A stretch of DNA of 34,829 bases from Methanosarcina sp. Ant1. Lineage in GTDB: Archaea > Halobacteriota > Methanosarcinia > Methanosarcinales > Methanosarcinaceae. The notes below the pieces were generated by a model. That model saw only the letters and a list, made by a program, of their open reading frames with translations. It was not told the origin of the DNA and ran no database searches. The DNA lies in assembly GCA_001714685.2 (NCBI GenBank), contig MDTP02000065.1, positions 1 through 34,829 on the forward strand. Direction: 5' to 3'. Positions 1 through 17,845 of the stretch are shown here, in pieces (position 1 is the stretch's first letter; each line of letters begins with the position of its first letter). Position numbers and translations under genes: made by a program.

Positions 1-394
1 ATTACATAAATATAGAATTATAAATTTTATGTAATGGTGTTACACTTACTTTTATCACTGGATTTTGGAACTGAGTCGATAAATTCAAAAATATATTTTT
101 TAATTGGAAAATTTTACTAACTATGGTCATGTATAATTTATGGACTTATAATATTTTTTGTTATAAGTCTAAAAATTTAATCCTAAGATTAGAATGAGAG
201 TATAACATCAGATAGAAAGCGCATCTTTAGACTCTATTTGGTCCCGGAAGACTAAACGTTAATAGGTTAGACTATAGTTGGAAAAATCGATACCTTTCAG
301 ACTACACATAGAAGGCTAAAACACAATATAATGTGACATATCAAGAATTGATTTTGGAGTTGTTCGAACTTTTATTCTCAAAGGAGCTAAAAGA
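1..394. other. AT-rich upstream region without a recognisable gene
   Basis: I see no convincing open frame in this stretch. It is strongly AT-rich. The only functional signal is the AAGGAG ribosome binding site at 381-386, nine bases before the ATG at 395 that opens the broken alcohol dehydrogenase gene. Confidence 0.6.
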
Positions 395-1542
395 ATGACA
401 TATATGTTTTTAAATCCAAAAATAGCCCTTATGGGGGCTGGTTGTGTAAAAGAAATCGGCATCCAGGCAAAGAATCTTGGGGCTACAAAAGCCCTGATAG
501 TCTCCGGCAAAAGCAAGCACGGAGAAAAGCTTGCAGAAGATATCGAAAATTCTTGAAAACGCAAGACTGAAAGCAGTAATCTTTGCAGGAGCAGACCCTA
601 ACCCAACTGATATTTCAGTTATGGAAGGAGCAGAGATTTACAGGAAAGAGAATTGTAATATGATCGTTGCTCTCGGAGGAGGGAGCCCAATGGACTGTGC
701 AAAGGCAGTTGGAATTGTAGCATATAACGGCGGAATAATTAATGATTACGAAGGAGCCGGAAAGGTTACAAAAGGAATTCCCCCGCTAATTACTGTAAAC
801 ACGACTGCGGGTACTGCAAGTGAGATGACGTGTTTTTCAGTTATCACAGATACAGAGAGACGTATCAAAATGCCAATTTGTGACCTACTCATCACAGCTG
901 ACGTAGCGGTTAACGATCCTGAACTTATGGTAAGTATGCCGCCAGATTTAACGGCTGCAACCGGAATGGACGCTTTAACCCATGCAGTTGATGCCTACGT
1001 CTCCACCATGGCTACCCCGACTACTGATGCAGCCGCTATTAAGGCAATTGAGCTTGTCTCAAAATACCTGCGTGAAGCTGTTGCTCATGGAGATAATATT
1101 AGAGCAAGGGATATGATGGCACATGCTGAATATCTCGCAGGAGTTGCTTTCAATAGTGCCTTCCTTGGCTATGTGCATTCTGTGGCCCACCAGCGCGGAG
1201 GCCTTTATGATCTTCCTCACGGAGTTTGCAATGCGATTCTCCTTCCCTATGTGGAGATGTATAACAAACAGGTCTGCCCTGAGCGTTTTGCAGATATTGC
1301 AAAGGCAATGGGAGAAAAAAATAGACGGATTGAGCCCGGAAGAAGCTGCAAATAAAGCCATAGATGCCATTATAAAGCTTGCAGCAGACATTGGAATTCC
1401 CTCGGGTCTGAAAGATCTTGGAGCAAGGGAAGAAGATTTTGTACTTATGGCTGAGAATGCCATGCAGGATATATGCAGGCTCACAAATCCCAGAGGACTC
1501 TCAAAAGAAGATATTGTCGAGATTTACAGGAAAGCCATGTAA
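395..1542 (+). pseudogene. Iron-containing alcohol dehydrogenase, two frameshifts
   Basis: This is a group III (Fe-dependent) NAD(P) alcohol dehydrogenase split over three frames. The start at ATG 395 follows an AAGGAG site and gives an N-terminus of the family type (FLNPKIALMGAG). That frame stops at TGA near 550, and the second frame continues with the nucleotide-binding GGGSPMDCAK, the metal-ligand segment GMDALTHAVDAY and the second ligand segment VHSVAHQRGG...DLPHG. It ends at TAA near 1354. The third frame carries the C-terminus to 1542. The second break lies in a run of seven A at 1315-1321, where six would restore EKIDGLSPEEAA. Joined, the product is about 380 residues, the usual family length, with all metal ligands (Asp and three His) present. 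The gene is therefore either recently inactivated or carries sequencing errors. No operon partner is visible. Confidence 0.85.
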
Positions 1543-1828: not shown

Positions 1829-1915
1829 TGCGAGAGGTGCGATTCGAACGCACGAACTACTACGAGAATATACTCTGAACCTGGCGCCTTTGACCTGGTT
1901 GAGTTGCCTCAGATC
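1829..1915 (-). pseudogene. tRNA-Leu fragment
   Basis: Read on the minus strand, this has the 3' half of a class II tRNA-Leu. It shows an acceptor 3' strand CTCTCGCA, a perfect T arm (stem GTGCG/CGCAC around TTCGAAT), a long-variable-arm region and an anticodon loop reading CAG within CCAGGTTCAGAG. The 5' acceptor strand does not pair properly and the anticodon stem is not closed, so it is not a functional tRNA. Its last 28 bases are repeated in the same orientation near 6192 with three differences, on the far side of the xpaC/VWA/telA operon. Confidence 0.65.
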
Positions 1916-1960
1916 CGTGAGGACTTGCAGTAAATTACTTTCCTTTTTGTGTTAGTTATC

Positions 1961-2060
1961 TGCTGCAGGCCTGTTGATTTTTAGTAGCTCAATAACTTCT
2001 GGATAATCGCTTATACACATCTTTTATGTTTTTGACTGAAAATCCATACGCTCCACACAT
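1961..2060 (-). pseudogene. Possible SRAP (YedK/HMCES-like) N-terminal remnant
   Basis: The minus strand from ATG 2060 reads MCGAYGFSVKNIKDVYKRL before a stop. SRAP-domain proteins begin with MCGR followed by an aromatic-rich segment, and Cys2 is the catalytic residue that crosslinks to abasic sites in single-stranded DNA. The match is short (about 20 residues) and the third family residue Arg is Ala here. I rate it a plausible gene fragment rather than a gene. Confidence 0.3.
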
Positions 2061-2341
2061 GGCTATTACACCCTTGCTGTGAAGAAAAAAGAATTATAGC
2101 ATTTTGCTGCAACTTCAAAAGTCAAGTATGTCAATATACAGATTGAACATTTATATTCAATTCCATTGTGGTTGGTGCAAGCCAGAATCAGGCAGTACAT
2201 GTACAAACATTAAGTGCCTGTTTATTATAGACGGGTCCATTTATGGAGGGTTATAAGATAATTTAACAAAAATGATATAGTGGTTTCACACATGAATCTG
2301 AAGAGAAAGATATTAAAGTAAAATCTGGGGCGAGCATGTGA

Positions 2342-3085
2342 ATGGACAGAAAAAAGCTGATTAAACTATCGGGCCTGAGTTTAGGCATTGCCGCCGCCAA
2401 CATAATTACCTTCTCTCCAAGATTGATCGGACTAGAGTTGTTCGGGGCCAGTGCATTGGAAACAGCCCTTGGCATCACATTCATCTTCTTAAGCGGCGCC
2501 GGGTTCATCCACAGCAATTATAAGATCCATACCGGACAGGAGAAAGATGATCAAACCAATAAAACCAGGACGGCGGAAGATTATATTGAAGCACTGAATA
2601 TTCAAAGAGGGCTCAAAACATTCGAAAAAACCGTTGACTTGCTGCTCGATCAGATTGAGCGGCTGCAGAAAAAAAATAAAACTATCCGGGATATCCTTCT
2701 GCAGATCTTCAGTGCCTCAGAGATGAGCTACAAGAAATTTGATGTGGTCATCGCCGAGGTGGAGAAGATATTCTTTATGAATATCCGCAGCATCCTCAAT
2801 AAATTGGATGCATTCGATGAAGAAGACTACAATTTCGTTAGGAAGAAATACGAAGAAGGGGCCTTTTCGCAGCAAACTATGGAAGAAAAGCTTAAAATTT
2901 TTAATGAGTATATCAATTTTGTGAAAGCTGCTACTGAAGATAATGAGCAGATCCTGCTAAAGCTTGATAAGCTGCTGCTGGAGATTTCAGGCTTAAACAG
3001 CGTAGAGAGTGGTCAACTGGATCAAATGGCCGGGATGATCGAGATCGATAATCTGATTAAACAGGCAAAATACTATAAGAATTGA
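2342..3085 (+). CDS. XpaC-like membrane protein (5-bromo-4-chloroindolyl phosphate hydrolysis family)
   Basis: This 247-residue protein has two hydrophobic segments at about residues 8-30 and 33-56, then a long charged, mostly helical cytoplasmic part rich in coiled-coil pattern (QIERLQKKNKTIRDILLQIF). The layout resembles the XpaC family, which in Firmicutes is found next to TelA/YaaN-like proteins; a TelA-like gene lies two genes downstream here. The biochemical role of XpaC is not firmly established. The stop is 16 bases before the next start, so the three genes should form one operon. Base composition is clearly richer in G and C than the flanks. ATG 2342 is chosen because the earlier ATG (2336) meets TGA at once; the ribosome binding site is weak. 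Confidence 0.6.
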   Translation: MDRKKLIKLSGLSLGIAAANIITFSPRLIGLELFGASALETALGITFIFLSGAGFIHSNYKIHTGQEKDDQTNKTRTAEDYIEALNIQRGLKTFEKTVDLLLDQIERLQKKNKTIRDILLQIFSASEMSYKKFDVVIAEVEKIFFMNIRSILNKLDAFDEEDYNFVRKKYEEGAFSQQTMEEKLKIFNEYINFVKAATEDNEQILLKLDKLLLEISGLNSVESGQLDQMAGMIEIDNLIKQAKYYKN

Positions 3086-3101
3086 AGAGGGAAGCATCGG
3101 C

Positions 3102-4757
3102 ATGCTGAACGAAAGCAACAAAAAAGTAATTTTGAAGATAATCGGAGCAGCAGTTGTAGTATTTATCTTAGTTTACCTGGCAATTATTATAATCGGACCC
3201 GGTGAGGGATCGCTGGATGACGTCATTAAAGACATCAATGTAAATACAGTCCCGCATCCTATGGGCCAGGTTTTCGTTCCCCCAGACCTGAATGGCTCCT
3301 TGACTGAAATCTTGCCTGAGATCTCCAAATACCCGCCGCAGGTTAATAACAGCACACCCAGCTACATCGAAATATTTTCCTCACCGGAAAAAGCTGGCAG
3401 CGGTACTGATGGCTGGCTGACAGAAGTGGCCAGAGACTTCAATAACGCGTCAATAACGATTGATGGCAAACAGGTATCGGTAAGGCTTAGAGGGATTCCC
3501 TCCGGGGAAGGCGCCGATTATATTACTTCCGGGAAGTATTTGCCGGATGCCTATACACCGTCCAATGAGCTATGGGGCGAGATGATCACCTCCAAAGGGG
3601 TTAAAGCCGAGTTAGTGCGAAAAAGACTTGCTGGCAATGTGGCTGGGATCCTGCTCACTAAATCCAAGAAAGACGAGCTGGTAAACAAATACGGGGCAAT
3701 CAATACCAAGACGATTAGCAATGCTGTCGCGAAAAGGGAACTGGCGATGGGCTACACCAATCCTTTTGCCAGTTCAACCGGGCTGAACTTCCTGATCTCA
3801 GCTTTATACACCTTTGACAGCAGCAACTTATTGAGCGATAAAGCAAAAGCAGGATTTGAGAGCTTCCAGACCAATATTCCCTTGGTTGCCTATACTACTC
3901 TGCAAATGAGGGAATCTGCCAAATCAGGTGTTCTGGACGGTTTTGTCCTGGAATACCAGACCTATGTGAATACACCGGATATCAGGTACTACGAATTTAC
4001 TCCCTTTGGGTTCAGACATGACAGCCCGATGTATGCGATCGGCGAACTATCGGCAGAGAAAATGAAAATCCTGAACGAATTCGTTGAATTCTCCCAGCAG
4101 GAAAAGTACCATACCCTGGCTAAGGATTATGGTTTTAATGGTTTTAATGAATACCAATCCGAAGCTGGACCCGTCAGCGGCGATGTGATCATCCAGGCCC
4201 AAAAACTCTGGAAAGAAAAGAAAAAACCTATTTGCGCAGTATTTGTGGCCGATGTCTCCGGTAGCATGATGGGCGAGCCGCTGAACAATTTGAAAGATTC
4301 ATTGCTTAAAGGTCAATACTACATCGGCGAGGACAATATGGTTGGCCTGGTATCATATTCCAACGATGTCAATATCGATCTGCCGATTGCCAAATTCGAT
4401 CTGAACCAGAGAGCCTCATTTGCGGGAGCGGTTAATGATTTGCAGGCCGGCGGCGGCACGGCAACCTTCGATGGGATTGCTGTCGCCATGAAGATGATCC
4501 AAGATCAGCGGGTTGCAGATCCCAATCTGAGACCGATTATCTTCGTTCTCAGCGACGGCGAGACCAATGAAGGCAATTCGTTGAACGATATTAAAGACAT
4601 CGTGGAGGATCTTGGAATACCTATATACACAATTGGTTATAATGCGAATATCCCGGCCCTGCAAGCTATCTCCAGCATCAATGAGGCTGCCAGCATTAAC
4701 GCCGATACTGATGACGTTGTTTATAAGCTGCGCAACCTGTTCAATGCTGAAATGTAA
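3102..4757 (+). CDS. Membrane-anchored VWA protein with N-terminal solute-binding-like region
   Basis: The 551-residue product begins with a membrane anchor (about residues 8-30, VVVFILVYLAIIIIG), followed by an extracytoplasmic region of about 300 residues that resembles the substrate-binding-protein-like region found ahead of VWA domains in bacterial proteins. A von Willebrand A domain occupies about 376-551. Its metal-ion-dependent adhesion site is intact, with DVSGS at 384-388 and a later GGGTATFDG and VLSDGETNEG providing the remaining ligands. It is preceded by an XpaC-like and followed by a TelA-like gene at 17-base spacings. This suggests a bacterial-type envelope-stress or adhesion module; the exact function is unknown. 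Codon and base use look bacterial, consistent with transfer. Confidence 0.75.
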   Translation: MLNESNKKVILKIIGAAVVVFILVYLAIIIIGPGEGSLDDVIKDINVNTVPHPMGQVFVPPDLNGSLTEILPEISKYPPQVNNSTPSYIEIFSSPEKAGSGTDGWLTEVARDFNNASITIDGKQVSVRLRGIPSGEGADYITSGKYLPDAYTPSNELWGEMITSKGVKAELVRKRLAGNVAGILLTKSKKDELVNKYGAINTKTISNAVAKRELAMGYTNPFASSTGLNFLISALYTFDSSNLLSDKAKAGFESFQTNIPLVAYTTLQMRESAKSGVLDGFVLEYQTYVNTPDIRYYEFTPFGFRHDSPMYAIGELSAEKMKILNEFVEFSQQEKYHTLAKDYGFNGFNEYQSEAGPVSGDVIIQAQKLWKEKKKPICAVFVADVSGSMMGEPLNNLKDSLLKGQYYIGEDNMVGLVSYSNDVNIDLPIAKFDLNQRASFAGAVNDLQAGGGTATFDGIAVAMKMIQDQRVADPNLRPIIFVLSDGETNEGNSLNDIKDIVEDLGIPIYTIGYNANIPALQAISSINEAASINADTDDVVYKLRNLFNAEM

Positions 4758-4774
4758 ATACAGGAGAGACTAAG

Positions 4775-5917
4775 ATGGCTTTTAATATGGAAGTGCCTGA
4801 TGAAGCGGCGATCAAGAGTGAGGTAGAGGAGCAAGTCAAACCGGTATCGGAGGAAGTAGCCCAGCTTCAGGCTGTAGCGGAGAAAAATGTTGCGGAAATT
4901 CTGACCCTGGATATCGATGAATTTGCCAAAAAAAAGTATATCCTCCAGTCGATCGAGTCTTTTGGGGCTACCTCGATGAAAAGCTCGGCAGCTAAAAATT
5001 CTTTGCTGCAGGTGACAGTCGGGAACCTGTCCAAAAACGGCGATGAAGGCGGTGTTGTGGCAAAAGGTTTAATGGATTTGAACCGAGAATTAAAAGACCT
5101 GGACCCCAGTCTTATTGATTTCACCAAGACCAGCATCTTAGGCACGCTGTTCAACCCGGTTAGGAGCTATTTTGCCAGATACCAGAAAGCAGATTCGGCA
5201 ATTGCGGATATCATTGTCTCTCTGGACAAAGGGAAAACAATTCTGAAAAATGATAATACTACTCTGGAGATCGAACAGCAGGCATTGCGCAATTTGACTA
5301 AAAAGCTGATGAAGGAGATCCAGCTCGGTACCCTGATGGACAAATCGATTGAAATGCAGATCGAAGCGGCCAAAGTCAGTAACGAGGACCCGGGAAAAGT
5401 TAAATTTGTTACTGAAGAAGTCCTATTTCCGCTGCGGCAGCGGATTATGGATATGCAGCAGATGATCGTCGTCAATCAGCAGGGAGTAATGGCGATAGAG
5501 GTTGTGATCAGAAATAACAAGGAACTGATGCGTGGGGTAGAAAGGGCCAAAAATGTGACTATTTCCGCTTTGAAGACCTCAGTGATGGTTGCCGGGGCTC
5601 TATATAACCAGAAGATTGTCCTGAAGAAGATTCAAATGCTCAATGAGATCACGAATAATATTATCAGCAGCACCTCGCAAATGCTGAAGGAACATGGAGT
5701 GGAAATCCAGAAACAATCAATGGAAGCCAATATCTCTGTCGAGACGCTAAAGACTGCCTTTGCCGATGTCATGGAAGCATTGGATTCCATCAGCACCTAT
5801 AAGCAGGAAGCTCTGCCCAAAATGCGGGATACTATCAATCAGTTCAAGGAATTGGCCGCCAAAAGCGAAGAACAGATTCAGCAGCTGGAGAAGGGCCATA
5901 AACTGGAGTATAGCTGA
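4775..5917 (+). CDS. TelA family (toxic anion resistance) protein
   Basis: This 380-residue, soluble, almost wholly helical protein has the TelA/YaaN family pattern. Diagnostic stretches include the central LFNPVRSYFARYQKADSAI, the LEIEQQALRNLTKKLMKEI helix and the conserved VVNQQGVMAIEVVIRNNKEL segment followed by GVERAKNVTISALK. Family members are linked to tellurite and other toxic anion resistance and to cell-envelope antimicrobial tolerance, but the mechanism is unclear. It is the last gene of the operon and starts 17 bases after the VWA gene behind CAGGAGAG (4761-4768). Pairing of an XpaC-like with a TelA-like gene is typical of Firmicutes, so lateral gain by the archaeon is likely. Confidence 0.85.
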   Translation: MAFNMEVPDEAAIKSEVEEQVKPVSEEVAQLQAVAEKNVAEILTLDIDEFAKKKYILQSIESFGATSMKSSAAKNSLLQVTVGNLSKNGDEGGVVAKGLMDLNRELKDLDPSLIDFTKTSILGTLFNPVRSYFARYQKADSAIADIIVSLDKGKTILKNDNTTLEIEQQALRNLTKKLMKEIQLGTLMDKSIEMQIEAAKVSNEDPGKVKFVTEEVLFPLRQRIMDMQQMIVVNQQGVMAIEVVIRNNKELMRGVERAKNVTISALKTSVMVAGALYNQKIVLKKIQMLNEITNNIISSTSQMLKEHGVEIQKQSMEANISVETLKTAFADVMEALDSISTYKQEALPKMRDTINQFKELAAKSEEQIQQLEKGHKLEYS

Positions 5918-5978
5918 AGAAAGCCGATGCCTGCAGGGCTCTCAGGCTGGGATAGGTAGATCAATATGTAAACTCCTT

Positions 5979-6129
5979 GAGGCGAGTGAAGCAACTGCGA
6001 GAAAGCAAAATTTGGTACACGTGCTCTCTTGTTGGAGCAACAATCTGGGTGCTTAAGGTTGCCAGATCAGTTTTTTCCTCAGGGTTAGTATCAACCGTCA
6101 AATAAATACCGACCGGAGTCACTCGCCTC
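5979..6129. repeat. Short inverted repeat pair downstream of telA
   Basis: GAGGCGAGTGA at 5979-5989 recurs inverted (TCACTCGCCTC) at 6119-6129, 129 bases away. The arms are perfect over 11 bases. The interval has no convincing gene. It could be the ends of a small insertion or a chance pair beside the tRNA-Leu fragment; I see no target duplication. Confidence 0.4.
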
Positions 6130-6191
6130 ATAATTACGGACACGGATTGAGAATAGATAGGTTTTGCCCATTTTCATTCTGCAAAACCTAA

Positions 6192-6255
6192 TGCGAGGGG
6201 TGCGACTCGAACCCACGAAATTCTTTGCCAGATCTTAAGTCCATTGCCTTAGAGC
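6192..6255 (-). pseudogene. tRNA-Leu(UAA) fragment
   Basis: The minus strand shows an anticodon arm with TAA in GGACTTAAGATC, then TTCGTGGGTTCGAGTCGCAC as T arm (one stem mismatch) and CCCTCGCA as acceptor 3' end. The 5' half of the tRNA and most of the variable arm are missing. The terminal 28 bases match those of the fragment at 1829-1856 in the same orientation with three differences. A stem-loop with arms AGGTTTTGC/GCAAAACCT lies immediately to the left (about 6159-6190). Confidence 0.7.
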
Positions 6256-6290
6256 GTGTCTTAAAATTAAATTTGGTTCTATAATTAGGA

Positions 6291-6405
6291 TAGGACTTAC
6301 ACACTAGAACTGAAAAATAGTAGCATTAAGCCATTAAATATCTAAAGTGCAATTTCAAATAAAGATGGATACTGCATTTGATTTCGTATATCGAGTGCGT
6401 AAGTT
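6291..6405. mobile_element. Degenerate copy of the TAGGACTTACGCA MITE
   Basis: The left end TAGGACTTACACA plus nearby AGAACTGA, and the right end TTTGATTTCG...TGCGTAAGTT, align with the complete 118-bp element at 34204-34321. The inner sequence is diverged and no target duplication survives. It has no coding capacity. Confidence 0.55.
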
Positions 6406-6930: not shown

Positions 6931-7164
6931 TTAAACTTTTTTCCGGAGCTCTTCATAAGTTTCGCGTGAAATCCTAATCTGCTTAAGGATTTCATTTATC
7001 AGGCCAGTACCCAACTCTTCATTCCCATGCACAGGCACAACTGTTTTCCTGCCGTCAGGATGAGCATATCTAACATGGCTTCCTACTTGATGGATCTTTT
7101 GAAAACCAATCATTTCAAGTATTTTACACATTTCTCTCCCACTCACTGGAAGGAGCCTGCTCAT
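6931..7164 (-). CDS. hicA: HicA mRNA interferase toxin
   Basis: This 77-residue protein is of the HicA (YcfA-like) family, which cleaves mRNA independently of or on the ribosome and uses a dsRBD-like fold. The family core is visible as GSHVRYAHPDGRKTVVPVHG, with the catalytic His at residue 30 in GSH and the usual C-terminal GLINEILKQI helix. Length is typical of the family. The start ATG overlaps the end of hicB by four bases (ATGA), so toxin synthesis should be coupled to translation of the antitoxin. The toxin core is intact, so the pair is probably active. Confidence 0.92.
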   Translation of the reverse strand: MSRLLPVSGREMCKILEMIGFQKIHQVGSHVRYAHPDGRKTVVPVHGNEELGTGLINEILKQIRISRETYEELRKKV

Positions 7165-7388
7165 ACCTTTATCTCGACCTGCTGAATTCCTATAAATTTC
7201 AACGGCAGAATATCTTCAAGTTCCTCTGCTTCAAGGCATACTTGGATTGCCTCTTTTACACGCTCCATGGCCTGTTCAACATTTTTTCCCTGAGTGTAAC
7301 AACCTGGTATATCAGGAACTTTTGCAATATATATGCCATCTTCATCCTGTTCGATCAGGACCGTATAATTCAAGTTCTTGCCTTCCAT
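7161..7388 (-). CDS. hicB: HicB antitoxin
   Basis: This partner of HicA has about 75 residues. It has the HicB fold signature YTVLIEQDEDGIYIAKVPDIPGC, then YTQGKNVEQAMERVKEAIQ. It lacks an added C-terminal ribbon-helix-helix or HTH domain, so it is a minimal HicB whose DNA binding, if any, must come from the complex. It is the first gene of the pair, which is the less common hicB-hicA order. I prefer ATG 7388 over the GTG at 7397 because most family members begin close to the YTV strand. A TATA-like element lies about 30-40 bases upstream. Confidence 0.9.
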   Translation of the reverse strand: MEGKNLNYTVLIEQDEDGIYIAKVPDIPGCYTQGKNVEQAMERVKEAIQVCLEAEELEDILPLKFIGIQQVEIKV

Positions 7389-7416
7389 CGTTACCACAAT
7401 ATCATTTAATCTATGA

Positions 7417-7427: not shown

Positions 7428-8190
7428 CGTCTAGGACAACTTCCCTCCACGCCCGAATGCTCACGAAGTGAGTAGACATCAGGCGGTCACTGGCAAAAAG
7501 AAGGGAAGTATAATCGGCAGCTGCCATAAAAAGCATGTTATAGCTGGAACATTGTTAGCAGCATCTATGCTTGTAATTAGGTTAATAAACTCGCCTAGTA
7601 AAGCCAAGGAGCAATGAAGATCACGTATATCCAAATTGAAAATGGAAGTTTCACAAAGAAACATTAGAACAGAAGCTGCATAATATTTATTGCATACTAA
7701 TAAAAGAAGATTTTGAATTGCAGGAAGCTAGCCACGAGCTCCCTGCGAGCACAAACATAAAGAATTTATTTGCAATTAACTATGAACTACTATTCTATAA
7801 AACTTGTATAAGACATTCTTCTGAATATTATTGAGAAACAAGAAATAGTGAAAGAACTAGACCAATTTACCGAAGAGAAAGTAACAATTTGGTTTTACAT
7901 AGGTTTTAGTAAAAGCTCTGTATTTTTTCCGATTTTTAGGCAAAAATGCTCTCAAATTAGTAGCTTAAACCGCTAAAGTGCATAGGTTTTACATTAAAAT
8001 CTATGCATCGTAGATTAGATTTTACATAACTTTTAGTGCATTGCTTTTTTAAAAACAAACTATTTTATAAATTTTAAAAGCTAGGAAAATAATTTTATAA
8101 AATTGAGCTTTCCTAAGTATGCATAGGAGCACATATTACTAAGACAAATTATCTAGCAGCAGAGAAGATTAAAGGATTAATAAAAGGAGA
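7428..8190. other. Intergenic region, no supported gene
   Basis: No open frame here has a ribosome binding site or recognisable domain. A hairpin with arms CTCAC/GTGAG lies at about 7459-7471 within a longer imperfect fold. The region also contains the second copy of the hicBA-flanking repeat (7932-8010). The rest is AT-rich and featureless. Confidence 0.5.
7932..8010. repeat. Direct repeat copy B flanking hicBA
   Basis: It matches 6664-6740 in the same orientation almost base for base over the first 45 bases. It again contains a TGCATAGGTTTTAC arm facing a partly matching TAAAATCTATGCA arm. The pair lies 1.27 kb apart with hicB-hicA between. Confidence 0.7.
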
Positions 8191-8454: not shown

Positions 8455-8785
8455 AACAGTCTTTAATAAATTATTCGGGTGTCTTTCCTTTTTGCCCTAG
8501 TAAAGTATGCCTGGCAGTTGTAATAGCCTGGCGGGTATCTAGAATTCTGCAACTGTGAGAACCTTTGTTCCATCAGAGGTAACAAGTCCATTATCCATGA
8601 GAAATATATACGAACAAAATATTAAAAAGTTCGTGTTTAGCAAAGAATATTCTAAATTTTGATAGAAAAATAAGCGGTTTTCTCCAAAAATACGAACATT
8701 CTATGGTAAAATGTAGCTATTCTTTGGATTTTAGCAGTGTTCGACTTTTCTATACAAGGATATTGATATTGTGATTGTTGAATAA

Positions 8786-8941
8786 GAAAGAGCGATTACT
8801 CGCTCTCCCTCTTCTAAGAACCGGACGTGCACCTTTCAATGCATCCGGCTCAAGCGTTCTATAACCTTTTCTGTATCAAGCAGCAGTTTTTTTCCCAAAT
8901 GGAGTGACCTTTCCGGGGACTTAATTTATTCTGACGTACAC
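8786..8941 (-). mobile_element. Group II intron remnant (domains V and VI, large internal deletion)
   Basis: The minus strand at 8851-8818 is a textbook 34-base domain V. It starts GAGCCGGA with the AGC triad, carries a GAAA tetraloop, has a two-base CG bulge and closes with TCCGGTTC. A domain VI-like hairpin with arms AGAGCGA/TCGCTCT and a GTAA loop follows at about 8789-8806. The upstream side has only about 90 bases before it meets the broken PKD coding sequence at 8941/8942, where GTGTACG could be an intron 5' end. The reverse transcriptase and domains I-III are gone, so it cannot move by itself. Confidence 0.8.
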
Positions 8942-14254: not shown

Positions 14255-15130
14255 TTAGGCGTAGGGGTCCCGCAGAGCCTTGTTGACGCCGAAGGTCTTG
14301 CGCTCCTCAACCGTCTTCCGGTTCTTATCGATCTTCTCCTTTGAGAGCTTCATGACGAGCTCGAGACCGGGCTTGACATCCTCGATGGGCTTCGTCTCGA
14401 ACATGCCTGCAGCGACCGCTTTGGACCAGACTTCATTTCCCTTCTTGGTGCGGATGAAGACTGTGGACCAGCCGTCAGGGCTTCCGACCGAGCCTGTCGA
14501 GATGTCGGCGAGGTTGGAGACATAGTCGAGGCAGACGTGGCAGCCGGGCTGTTCGTACTTGTGGGTCGCCTTTAGCGGCAGGGTCGAAACGTTCCCGCGC
14601 TCGGTGTAGACCCAGAATTTTCCCTTCCCGATCTCCATCTTCTTCACGGAGCTGAGGTTCTGATTCGCGTGGTCCTCGACGATGGTCTGCATGGACTTGT
14701 ACGGAAAATTCTCCATGCAGAAGAGCCCAACTGTTAGGGCAACCTTTCCCGGGACATCCCGCATGTTGATGGGATAGAGCTGAGCCTTCCTGACCGCCTG
14801 CATCTGGCAGCAGACGCCGGTGACCCCGACCTTGTCGAGGCCGAAGGACCGGGTCGCCTCTTTGAGCCAGGAAATCTGGGGGCTGATGCTGTACTTCGTC
14901 CCTCGTGCCTTGAGGATGTCCTCGCGGCTCATCGCGACGAACGGCTTTGGCTCCCAGGGCCGGTCGCCCTCGACTGCCACAATTGTCCCGTCGATTATTC
15001 CCTGCTCGAGGGCAAAGGTCATGAGGGTGGTGGCGATGCCGCCGTCCTGTGCTTTCTGGAGGATTTCCTTGTCCGTGCTCCGTGCCGAGATGCAGGTCAT
15101 GTATTTGCCAAGATATGGATCTTCAATCAT
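14255..15130 (-). CDS. frhB: Coenzyme F420-reducing hydrogenase, beta subunit
   Basis: FrhB (291 residues) binds FAD and an [4Fe-4S] cluster and passes electrons from the hydrogenase to F420. Family hallmarks are QDGGIATTLMTFALE, the GVTGVCCQMQAVRKAQ cysteine segment, GLFCMENF and the C-terminal GCHVCLDY and ISTGSVGSPDGWSTV motifs. Length is normal. It is the last gene of frhADGB, starting nine bases after frhG behind GAGGTGA. The operon is far richer in G and C than the surrounding 30 kb. All key cysteines are present, so the enzyme should be functional if made. Confidence 0.96.
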   Translation of the reverse strand: MIEDPYLGKYMTCISARSTDKEILQKAQDGGIATTLMTFALEQGIIDGTIVAVEGDRPWEPKPFVAMSREDILKARGTKYSISPQISWLKEATRSFGLDKVGVTGVCCQMQAVRKAQLYPINMRDVPGKVALTVGLFCMENFPYKSMQTIVEDHANQNLSSVKKMEIGKGKFWVYTERGNVSTLPLKATHKYEQPGCHVCLDYVSNLADISTGSVGSPDGWSTVFIRTKKGNEVWSKAVAAGMFETKPIEDVKPGLELVMKLSKEKIDKNRKTVEERKTFGVNKALRDPYA

Positions 15131-15139
15131 CTCTTCACC

Positions 15140-16003
15140 TCACTTAAGCACTCCAGCGATCATCTCGCTGATGGCCTCGAATTCAGGAATCACGTCGAAG
15201 TTGAAGAACGACCTCGGACAGGCGCCGTAGCAGGAGCCGCACTTGATGCAGAGGTCACGCTGACCCTGCGGCTTCCCGAACTCGTGGGTGATCGCCCGCA
15301 CGGGACAGGATGCAGCGCAGGTGCCGCAGCCGATGCAGAGGCCCTGGTTGATTACGTCATTCATCAGGTCGCAGAAGCATCCGGTCGTGCTGCGCTTCGC
15401 AAGGTCCATGAGGGGCTTTAAGTACCTGCCCGCAAGGGCCTTCTGTTCCTCATTCCCCTGCAGGAGCAGGTACGCCATCACAGTGACGTTCCTTATGAGC
15501 TCCGGGCTCGGGGGGCATCCGGGGATGTAGACATCCACGTCGATGAGATCCCCTATGGGGAGGAAGGACTCGTGCTGGGGCTGGTTGTGCTGCCCGCCGC
15601 GGCAGAACCGGGTGATGTTCCCGTAGCTCGCGCAGGAGCCAAGGGCTACCACGACCTTGGCCTTCTTCCGCGTCTCCTTGATATCTTCCACCGATTCATG
15701 GTCCTGGATGCAGACCGATCCCTCGACGAGCGCCACGTCCATCTCTGGGATATGCCGGACGTCCGCGAGCGTGAGGCTGTAGACGAGGTCGGCGTAGTCG
15801 TCCAGGATCTTGATGAATCCCAGGTAGTTGTCGGCCACGGACACGAGGCAGCCGGTACAGCCGCTCATGTGTACATGCCCGAGCTTGATCTTGTTTGCCA
15901 CTGGTTTTGTCTCCTTTGTAGCTTCCACCTTCTTCTCTGTCGCAACCTGAGGGGGCTTGGATTCCCCGCCCATGGTTTTCTTGATGGAGTTAAGCAGTTC
16001 CAT
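15140..16003 (-). CDS. frhG: Coenzyme F420-reducing hydrogenase, gamma (small) subunit
   Basis: This 287-residue subunit carries three [4Fe-4S] clusters linking the NiFe site to FrhB. The proximal cluster segment starts SGCTGC (Cys49, Cys52) and includes GSCASYGN and IPGCPPSP. A C-terminal double-cluster ferredoxin domain shows CIGCGTCAASCP (from residue 223) and CIKCGSCYGACP (from 252). The start overlaps the end of frhD by 14 bases, which implies translational coupling. There is no Tat signal, in line with cytoplasmic Frh. Confidence 0.96.
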   Translation of the reverse strand: MELLNSIKKTMGGESKPPQVATEKKVEATKETKPVANKIKLGHVHMSGCTGCLVSVADNYLGFIKILDDYADLVYSLTLADVRHIPEMDVALVEGSVCIQDHESVEDIKETRKKAKVVVALGSCASYGNITRFCRGGQHNQPQHESFLPIGDLIDVDVYIPGCPPSPELIRNVTVMAYLLLQGNEEQKALAGRYLKPLMDLAKRSTTGCFCDLMNDVINQGLCIGCGTCAASCPVRAITHEFGKPQGQRDLCIKCGSCYGACPRSFFNFDVIPEFEAISEMIAGVLK

Positions 16004-16469
16004 AGTTCATCCCGATTTCCTTCAGTATCTCGGAAACAGCTCCGGGAATGGCTCTCTGTACCTCGTCTGTAATCCCGATGACCATATCGGGGGCAGAAAC
16101 GTACTTCTTCTGGCATGCAAGGATCCGGATCCGGATATCGTCCTTGATGCACTGGAGCGGCTCGGTAAGATCCCATGAGTGGGCGTCCCGGTAGCTCCCC
16201 ACAGGGAGCTCGTCAACGGCGAGCCACCTGAGCTCGCCGGGTTCCCCCCCGAAGTCCGCGATGTCCACGATAATAAGAGTCTTCGTGGACTCGGGATTGA
16301 GGAGGGTAAAGACGAAATGGGGGCCTCCGAGCCCCGCATCAACGACCGTGACGTTCTCGGGAAGCTCGAGGTCCTTTAGACTCTCCACTACGGCGGGTCC
16401 GAAGCCGTCGTCCGCATATAGCGGGTTGCCGCAGCCTGCCACAACGATCTCGGAGTACAGCGTTTCCAT
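15990..16469 (-). CDS. frhD: F420-reducing hydrogenase maturation protease
   Basis: FrhD is the nickel-dependent endopeptidase that trims the C-terminus of FrhA after metal insertion. The sequence shows VVAGCGNPLYADDGFGPAVV at the N-terminus, VVDAGLGG, and DAHSWDL with the conserved His. I place the start at ATG 16469 (METLYSE) and not the longer open frame, because it follows GGTGAAGGG closely and begins five bases after the frhA stop. The product is about 159 residues, as expected. The presence of frhD separates this operon from the freAEGB type. Confidence 0.93.
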   Translation of the reverse strand: METLYSEIVVAGCGNPLYADDGFGPAVVESLKDLELPENVTVVDAGLGGPHFVFTLLNPESTKTLIIVDIADFGGEPGELRWLAVDELPVGSYRDAHSWDLTEPLQCIKDDIRIRILACQKKYVSAPDMVIGITDEVQRAIPGAVSEILKEIGMNYGTA

Positions 16470-16474
16470 TCCCT

Positions 16475-17845
16475 TCACCACTGGAGGATCTGCTTGGCGA
16501 CTATCTTGTTCTCCTCGTCCACCACAATCATGTGGGTTGCGCACGAGACGCACGGGTCATAGGCCCGGACGACCATCTCGGCAATCTGCCAGGGCGCTCC
16601 CGTCAGACCGCGGCTGCAGGTGGGGAGGTTCCAGGTAGTGGGTACAAGCATCTCATACCACAGCACCCGCCCGTCCTTCACCCGTGCGAGGTGGACATCG
16701 GTCCCTCGCGGGGCCTCGTTCGCGGCCCATCCCATGGATCCATCTCCCTGAGGGATGTGGTCGGCGAGGACCTTGCCCGAGGTATCCAGGTTGTCAAGGC
16801 ACTTGAGGATAGTATAGCAGCAGTCGGGGTACTCCAGCTGCCTGGCGATGTGCTGGGCGAAGGTGCCCTTCTCGTTGAAGTTCTTGAAGGTGGCGAGTCT
16901 TGCCCTCGGGCCGACCTCAATCGGCTGACCGTCGTAGGTCGGAACACCGTTGCAGGCCTCCATCTGGGGGTTGGCTTTGGTGCCGACCTTCGTGGTGCCG
17001 CCGATCGGATAGCTCGGGTCTTCAAGATCGATGGTTACCTCACCCATGTACCATTCCCATGGCCTGGTCTCCTTCCACCGGGCGAAGTCCCACATGGGCT
17101 TCTCGTCCAGACTGGATGATCCGTACATCGGGGATGTGGCCATGACCCCCTGGTTGTGGTACCCGAGCGTCTTTGGAATCGGGATTTGCTTACCTGCGAC
17201 TTCGGTGAACCCCCGGTTCTGCATGTTCCTGATAACATCGAGCATGAACTCCATCTGCTCGTGGGCAAGGACAAGGCCTTCCTTCGTCAGGTCGGCCATC
17301 TTCTGCTTTGCCAGAGGACTTACGTTGCGGTACATCCCGCCGATTCTCGGGTTGGAGGGGTGGATCGCCTCGCCGCCTGCGATGGCTCCAATGGTTTGTG
17401 CAATCTCTCGGATGCGGATGATCCTCGCCGCAACGCTCCTGAAAGGCTGCTCCTTGGCGAACGGATTGATCTTCGTCTCTGTCCCCGGGATGTAAAAGTC
17501 AGGGAGGATCAGGATGTTGTGCAGGGCGTGGCTGTGGAGACGGTTCGCAGCATGGAGAATGACCCGCAGGAGCTTTGCGTCCGTGGGAATCTCGCAGCCG
17601 ATCGAAGCCTCCATAGCCTCGACGCTAGCCAGGGTGTGGGCGATGGGGCAGATACCGCAGACCCGAGAGGCAATCTTCGGGACCTGTTCCATCGTCTTAC
17701 CTATGGCGAGCTTCTCAATACCCCTGACCGGGGTAATGGAGAGCCAGTCTCCTCGCTCGACGATACCCTGATCATTAACCTTCAGGGTGAGCTTGGAGTG
17801 GCCTTCATGTCTCGTGGTTGGAGAGATTTCTACAACTTTCGTCAA
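16475..17845 (-). CDS. frhA: Coenzyme F420-reducing hydrogenase, alpha (large) subunit
   Basis: FrhA (456 residues) holds the NiFe centre that splits H2. The N-terminal nickel ligands are in RVCGIC (Cys63, Cys66) and the C-terminal pair in DPCVSCATH (Cys432, Cys435); all are cysteine, so this is not the selenium form. Cleavage after His438 by FrhD would release an 18-residue tail. The start is TTG at 17845 with GAGG seven bases before; there is no in-frame ATG or GTG between the upstream TGA and this codon. A TTG start could limit translation. The high-GC coding region contrasts sharply with both flanks. Confidence 0.96.
   Translation of the reverse strand: MTKVVEISPTTRHEGHSKLTLKVNDQGIVERGDWLSITPVRGIEKLAIGKTMEQVPKIASRVCGICPIAHTLASVEAMEASIGCEIPTDAKLLRVILHAANRLHSHALHNILILPDFYIPGTETKINPFAKEQPFRSVAARIIRIREIAQTIGAIAGGEAIHPSNPRIGGMYRNVSPLAKQKMADLTKEGLVLAHEQMEFMLDVIRNMQNRGFTEVAGKQIPIPKTLGYHNQGVMATSPMYGSSSLDEKPMWDFARWKETRPWEWYMGEVTIDLEDPSYPIGGTTKVGTKANPQMEACNGVPTYDGQPIEVGPRARLATFKNFNEKGTFAQHIARQLEYPDCCYTILKCLDNLDTSGKVLADHIPQGDGSMGWAANEAPRGTDVHLARVKDGRVLWYEMLVPTTWNLPTCSRGLTGAPWQIAEMVVRAYDPCVSCATHMIVVDEENKIVAKQILQW

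Follow-up and report, generated by a model that had tools for sequence, protein, structure and literature searches.

The window, that is, the whole 34,829-nt stretch that was analysed, is contig C65 of the draft assembly of Methanosarcina sp. Ant1 (4.29 Mb, 342 contigs), whose neighbours in the genus are Methanosarcina-type. Its ORF list places three intact reading frames head to tail on one strand (Table 1), and the same-strand operon described in the initial annotation is real. On the left lies an iron-type alcohol dehydrogenase gene that is split over reading frames and represents either a pseudogene or assembly errors; this side of the window (196-1217) is 89% identical to contig C37 of genome G019 and provides the left-hand synteny landmark. 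Short dispersed repeats that recur many times in the present genome and in other Methanosarcina occupy the right flank at 6248-6404, 7438-7569, and 7826-7999. A hicA/hicB toxin-antitoxin pair (6931-7397) sits beside the operon region, and a group II intron domain is matched on the minus strand at 8777-8853. No conserved fourth operon gene is seen around the copies that were compared. The inverted-repeat tail downstream of telA is shared with the copy in genome G001 and in large part with that in G184, and is absent from the L081 and Methanothrix-type copies. An Rfam search gives no match at the operon, and a z of -1.7 for the tail does not make a convincing structured RNA.

Table 1. Features of the telA operon region in window coordinates.
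Feature	Position	Strand	Basis
Gene 1, 247 aa; all-helical domain preceded by two predicted N-terminal membrane helices; not XpaC	2342..3085	+	Intact ORF, PF10112 tests, AlphaFold
Gene 2; SBP domain and VWA domain (complete metal-site motif) after an N-terminal membrane anchor	3102..4757	+	Pfam, fold matches, invariant residues
Gene 3, telA (toxic anion resistance protein family)	4775..5917	+	PF05816, 260 bits
Non-coding tail 3' of telA with perfect 12-bp inverted repeats	5978..6130	.	Travelled with the operon; inverted repeat found
Decayed tRNA-Leu(CAG) 3' piece (piece 1) and native downstream flank	1829..1901	-	Predates the operon
Decayed tRNA-Leu(TAA) 3' piece (piece 2)	6192..6245	-	Best match the TAA gene on C168, anticodon TAA retained; origin unrelated to piece 1
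Iron-type alcohol dehydrogenase gene, split over frames	395..1542	+	Pfam ADH domains, broken frames
Dispersed repeat abutting piece 2, many copies across Methanosarcina genomes	6248..6404	.	Repeated matches, query 334-490 of window 5915-8000

Gene 3 belongs to the TelA family, with a full-length PF05816 match (residues 48-369, E=4.6e-77) that exceeds the curated cut-off of 30 bits. For gene 2, Pfam reports VWA (3e-16) and SBP_bac_11 (8.5e-7), and the DxSGS, T, and D residues of the VWA metal site are invariant. Fold matches are to VWA domains and, for the binding domain, to ModA and a sulfate-binding protein; the latter, at 11-15% identity, suggest oxyanion binding. A search of viral contigs and phages finds no gene 2 relative, and the plasmids searched hold only distant ones, at about 30%. 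The archaeal plasmid pNP174 of Methanosphaera (L203) carries a telA that is 47% identical to the window copy, directly downstream of a gene for an uncharacterised zinc-ribbon protein.

The VWA protein had been placed between XpaC and TelA; its VWA domain and the TelA assignment are confirmed by Pfam, but the identification of gene 1 as xpaC is not borne out. The PF10112 profile (XpaC / Halogen_Hydrol) matches none of 22 gene 1 relatives, although the positive control, a genuine XpaC encoded in a Cytobacillus xpaC-telA operon, reaches 200 bits, and hhalign gives a probability of 0.3% for true XpaC against the gene 1 profile. The AlphaFold model is all-helical (mean pLDDT 74), with two low-confidence N-terminal helices compatible with membrane spans, and a fold search against the PDB returns no match with E below 0.001. 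Gene 1 is a member of an uncharacterised family, for which "XpaC-like" may at most describe the position in the operon. All three genes are under purifying selection (dN/dS 0.16-0.43). Within gene 1, the first 80 codons (window 2342-2581) yield dN/dS of about 0.4-1.0 between methanogen copies, with 0.14-0.31 for the remainder; the membrane part is subject to relaxed or diversifying change.

The operon had also been described as richer in G+C than its surroundings. This is true relative to the intergenic flanks (45.3% versus about 36%), but not relative to neighbouring genes. Because the dehydrogenase (44.7%), mre11 (45.3%), and rad50 (46.3%) are equally high in the same window, the contrast is one of coding versus intergenic DNA and is no sign of foreign origin. 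Compared with the telA operon, composition is far more deviant in a coenzyme F420 hydrogenase set at 14255-17845 (NiFe large subunit, maturation protease, small subunit bearing ferredoxin domains, and FrhB), with 58-59% G+C, and with 77-81% at third codon positions in two of the genes, in a surrounding stretch of 28-36%. This set may have been imported from a high-G+C methanogen.

The tRNA-Leu 3' fragments are real: two pieces lie on the minus strand, with ends at 1829 and 6192 and, as first reported, three differences within the final 28 nt. Both matches are far above chance. Piece 1 has a CAG anticodon and is 88% identical over 73 nt to the tRNA-Leu(CAG) gene on contig C252 of the same genome (E=7e-20), and piece 2, with a TAA anticodon, matches the genome's own tRNA-Leu(TAA) on contig C168 (E=1.5e-11). 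ARAGORN calls no tRNA in the window, so both are pieces rather than genes. The double occurrence of the 28-nt end says little, since this segment corresponds to the T-arm and acceptor stem, which tRNA-Leu genes share; the equivalent ends of the genome's own CAG, TAG, TAA, and GAG genes differ from that of piece 1 at 0, 1, 3, and 4 bases, respectively. The anticodons and best matches show that the two pieces stem from different isoacceptor genes, CAG and TAA.

On contig C37 of G019, the order is purD-like, argF-like (both labels are readings of the ORFs), tRNA-Leu(CAG), about 100 bp, the piece 1 orthologue with its downstream flank, and the dehydrogenase, with no operon; G019 is 81% complete, but the contig spans the site itself. 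Because the orthologue occupies the equivalent position next to this dehydrogenase in an operon-free contig, piece 1 is older than the operon. The operon-free site that the initial annotation proposed to look for in relatives already contains piece 1. Such fragments are common away from this locus, an outcome that the initial annotation had itself named as counting against it, and they occur in several Methanosarcina genomes without the operon. Pieces of tRNA-Leu(CAG) that lack the 5' part occur in G002, G003, G004, G007, and G026, and telA is found in none of these genomes. Piece 1 is part of a hotspot for integration at tRNA-Leu(CAG) in this genus. In the present genome, argF and tRNA-Leu(CAG) are on C252 and piece 1 is on C65, and extra DNA may lie between the C252 stretch and piece 1. 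The absence of an integrase, recognized from the start, is confirmed by Pfam among the larger window ORFs, and between the pieces no large ORF occurs besides the three operon genes.

The tRNA-Leu(CAG) locus of G004 (L190, L191) is a busy hotspot of integration and defence. Beside the intact gene lies a 5' half with 100% identity, together with several 3' pieces, one of which is next to a phage-type integrase, and the locus also holds a D5-type primase and the defence-like HEPN_Swt1/DUF499 and DUF1156 methyltransferase genes. Elsewhere, a near full-length tRNA-Leu(CAG)-like pseudogene with a changed T-arm lies at 273-357 of L003 (contig C211), where ARAGORN does not call it.

A genome scan recovers this gene trio, with order and strand conserved, in Methanothrix-type archaea (gene 2 identity 70-79%), in a Peptococcaceae bin (75%), and, at about 57-64%, in Clostridia and Paenibacillaceae. 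The concatenated tree unites all methanogen copies in a single clade (SH-aLRT 99), in which those of Methanosarcinaceae are monophyletic; the Peptococcaceae copy branches next (100), and the other Firmicutes all fall outside. An alternative topology, in which the Methanosarcinaceae and Peptococcaceae copies group to the exclusion of all others, is rejected (p-AU 0.0002). The SRAP, Sel1, and CobN-type genes on the Peptococcaceae contig fit a bacterium, though this contig comes from a metagenome bin. The Firmicutes-like character read initially from the gene set is upheld by this tree placement and by the identical gene order in Firmicutes loci. With the direction of transfer taken from a midpoint root and one Peptococcaceae metagenome bin, the simplest reading is passage from Firmicutes to a methanogen, followed by spread among methanogens. 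Firmicutes are known as frequent donors of genes to Methanosarcina (PMC4455057).

Of 31 Methanosarcina genomes, two carry telA; across the phylum, the count is 8 of 393, which includes a weak 24% partial match. The other seven comprise two in Methanosarcina, one from a different genus of this family, and four from a single further family, probably Methanotrichaceae as judged by named relatives. The second Methanosarcina genome, G001, which we take to be M. acetivorans-like, carries the same block (window 2342-6133) with 92% identity at an unrelated site with unrelated flanks. In nearly all comparisons, homology starts near the gene 1 start and stops at or just past the telA stop; upstream DNA is shared with the window only by the G184 and L081 copies. 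At fourfold sites, the operon is 84-90% identical to that of G001, compared with 57% for rpoB, 78% for mcrA, and 51-54% for mre11/rad50. The corresponding figures are 81-89% versus 48% (rpoB) and 63% (mcrA) for another Methanosarcinaceae genus, and 63-72% versus 32% for both core genes for the Methanothrix-type G304. Vertical archaeal descent, which would have refuted the initial reading, does not produce this synonymous-site excess over core genes. Horizontal acquisition of the operon is strongly supported by these sequence comparisons, which also show recent movement between Methanosarcina, another Methanosarcinaceae genus, and Methanothrix-type genomes, into different chromosomal surroundings.

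We consider it probable that this is a horizontally acquired, mobile, and selectively maintained three-gene envelope-protection operon that is shared among methanogens. Vertical inheritance of an old methanogen operon, lost from most Methanosarcina, would agree with the single methanogen clade and the monophyly of the Methanosarcinaceae copies, but the fourfold-site identity of the operon is far above that of core genes at every distance. Vertical descent is thus excluded as the sole source; together with the sparse occurrence of telA in Methanosarcina and surroundings that differ from lineage to lineage, this leaves such a history highly improbable. Another possibility is a single element that integrated at a tRNA-Leu gene, with the two pieces as its left and right ends, the operon as cargo, and the integrase since lost. 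The operon does lie between two same-strand tRNA-Leu 3' ends, as the initial annotation emphasized, and islands with such pieces at tRNA-Leu(CAG) are served by an integrase in G004. The interpretation as paired borders nevertheless fails on several counts: the pieces derive from different isoacceptors and are not matching direct repeats of one tRNA gene, piece 1 occupies the same place in G019 without the operon, and neither side has an intact tRNA gene. Furthermore, the pair is absent around the copies in G001, G184 (another genus), and Methanothrix-type genomes, and homology to the block found elsewhere starts at gene 1, not at the pieces. We regard this scenario as very unlikely. An att pair built from unlike isoacceptors, with a TAA-type element site entering a CAG-type site, was also considered and is disfavoured by the G019 site that holds piece 1 and no operon.

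A larger hotspot island deserves more weight, though we still judge it unlikely. Here, the operon would sit within a long insertion that extends from the intact tRNA-Leu(CAG) on C252 to piece 1 as its far end, and piece 2 would be an inner scar. The roughly 100 bp that separate tRNA-Leu(CAG), next to argF, from the piece 1 orthologue in G019 contrast with the placement of the same elements on two contigs in the present genome, and the spacing of pieces in other species points to islands of tens of kb at tRNA-Leu(CAG), one with an integrase. However, C252 and C65 are unjoined in the draft assembly, there is no integrase among the C65 ORFs scanned, and mre11-rad50 on C65 have relatives in G001 and G020, which makes a single island over the whole contig doubtful. 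Casposons, for which the tRNA-Leu ends would be target sites and the operon cargo, come to mind since those of M. mazei insert at the CGCA ends of tRNA-Leu genes (PMC6977970, PMC10359463). On C168 (L207, 4377-4510), the genome's own tRNA-Leu(TAA) gene is indeed followed, 10 nt past its CGCA end, by GGGTAATAGGTAACATAAAAAAACGCAACGC, very like the published M. mazei casposon end. This sequence may be a casposon remnant; no casposase ORF lies downstream on C168, where the next gene encodes a PKD-repeat surface protein. The window itself contains no casposon end at up to 3 mismatches in 16 nt, the 14-nt sites 3' of the two pieces differ, and no casposase is found among the ORFs scanned. A casposon duplicates 14 bp and leaves no 50-70 nt copy of a tRNA, and this origin is scarcely credible for the operon. 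For the horizontally shared operon that we favour, entry would have occurred by uptake and recombination into a scar-rich region, rather than as cargo of an element bounded by the two pieces.

As to function, the three-gene set probably protects the cell envelope. In Listeria, the xpaC-telA pair responds to a bacteriocin, and disruption of telA increases sensitivity to nisin fourfold and to tellurite twofold (PMC12791056). Work on the CesSR envelope-stress response of Lactococcus lists the xpaC-telA pair among the induced genes (PMC3139573), and TelA has been proposed as a builder of sub-membrane structures (PMC7824862). Our best guess is a sensor-to-scaffold envelope defence. Gene 2 would be held by its N-terminal helix with the oxyanion-type binding domain and the metal-site VWA domain outside the membrane; a signal sensed there could pass through the membrane helices of the gene 1 and gene 2 proteins to TelA, a presumed scaffold under the membrane that might make it more resistant to toxic oxyanions or to agents that attack membranes. 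Both the oxyanion ligand and any contacts among the three proteins are predictions. The literature search found no experiment on any member of the three-gene set and no open-access paper on the operon in Methanosarcina. Of the complete imported stress module suggested at the outset, the Firmicutes type, the horizontal origin, the completeness, and the selection stand, and XpaC as a member does not. Possible, but more doubtful, is a broader view in which a cassette free of mobility genes is exchanged among methanogen families and Firmicutes that possibly cohabit with them; its membrane protein of a new family, its extracellular sensor with oxyanion-binding and VWA domains, and its TelA would give archaea a bacterial-type envelope defence independent of peptidoglycan.

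These results correct a tempting but wrong sign of integration, the two tRNA-Leu ends, and the core-gene controls show the movement of an envelope-stress operon of Firmicutes type from one methanogen family to another. As M. acetivorans is genetically tractable, the copy in the M. acetivorans-like genome offers a possible test bed for TelA function without a bacterial wall. Among known systems, the Firmicutes xpaC-telA (yaaN) operons (Listeria lmo1966-lmo1967, Lactococcus llmg_1115-telA1), likely involved in envelope defence, are alike in having a gene for a small helical membrane protein followed by telA, but gene 1 of the window belongs to another family without PF10112, and the SBP-VWA gene lies in between. 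The Ter stress systems (PMC7824862) also combine TelA with a VWA protein and a proposed sub-membrane protection. In contrast to these, no TerB, TerC, or TerD gene adjoins the operon, whose immediate neighbours are the dehydrogenase pseudogene and hicA/hicB, and the VWA protein has an extracytoplasmic binding domain. Transfer into Methanosarcina is already well known, and the operon is an ordinary but well-documented, modest addition. It shares its donor group with the clostridial and other bacterial genes described in Methanosarcina (PMC4455057), where we found no mention of it, and differs in having also crossed methanogen families. The SBP-VWA / TelA operons of Paenibacillaceae, Clostridia, and Methanothrix-type archaea are its true homologues, with identical families, gene order, and strand; their make-up is identical, and only host and surroundings differ.
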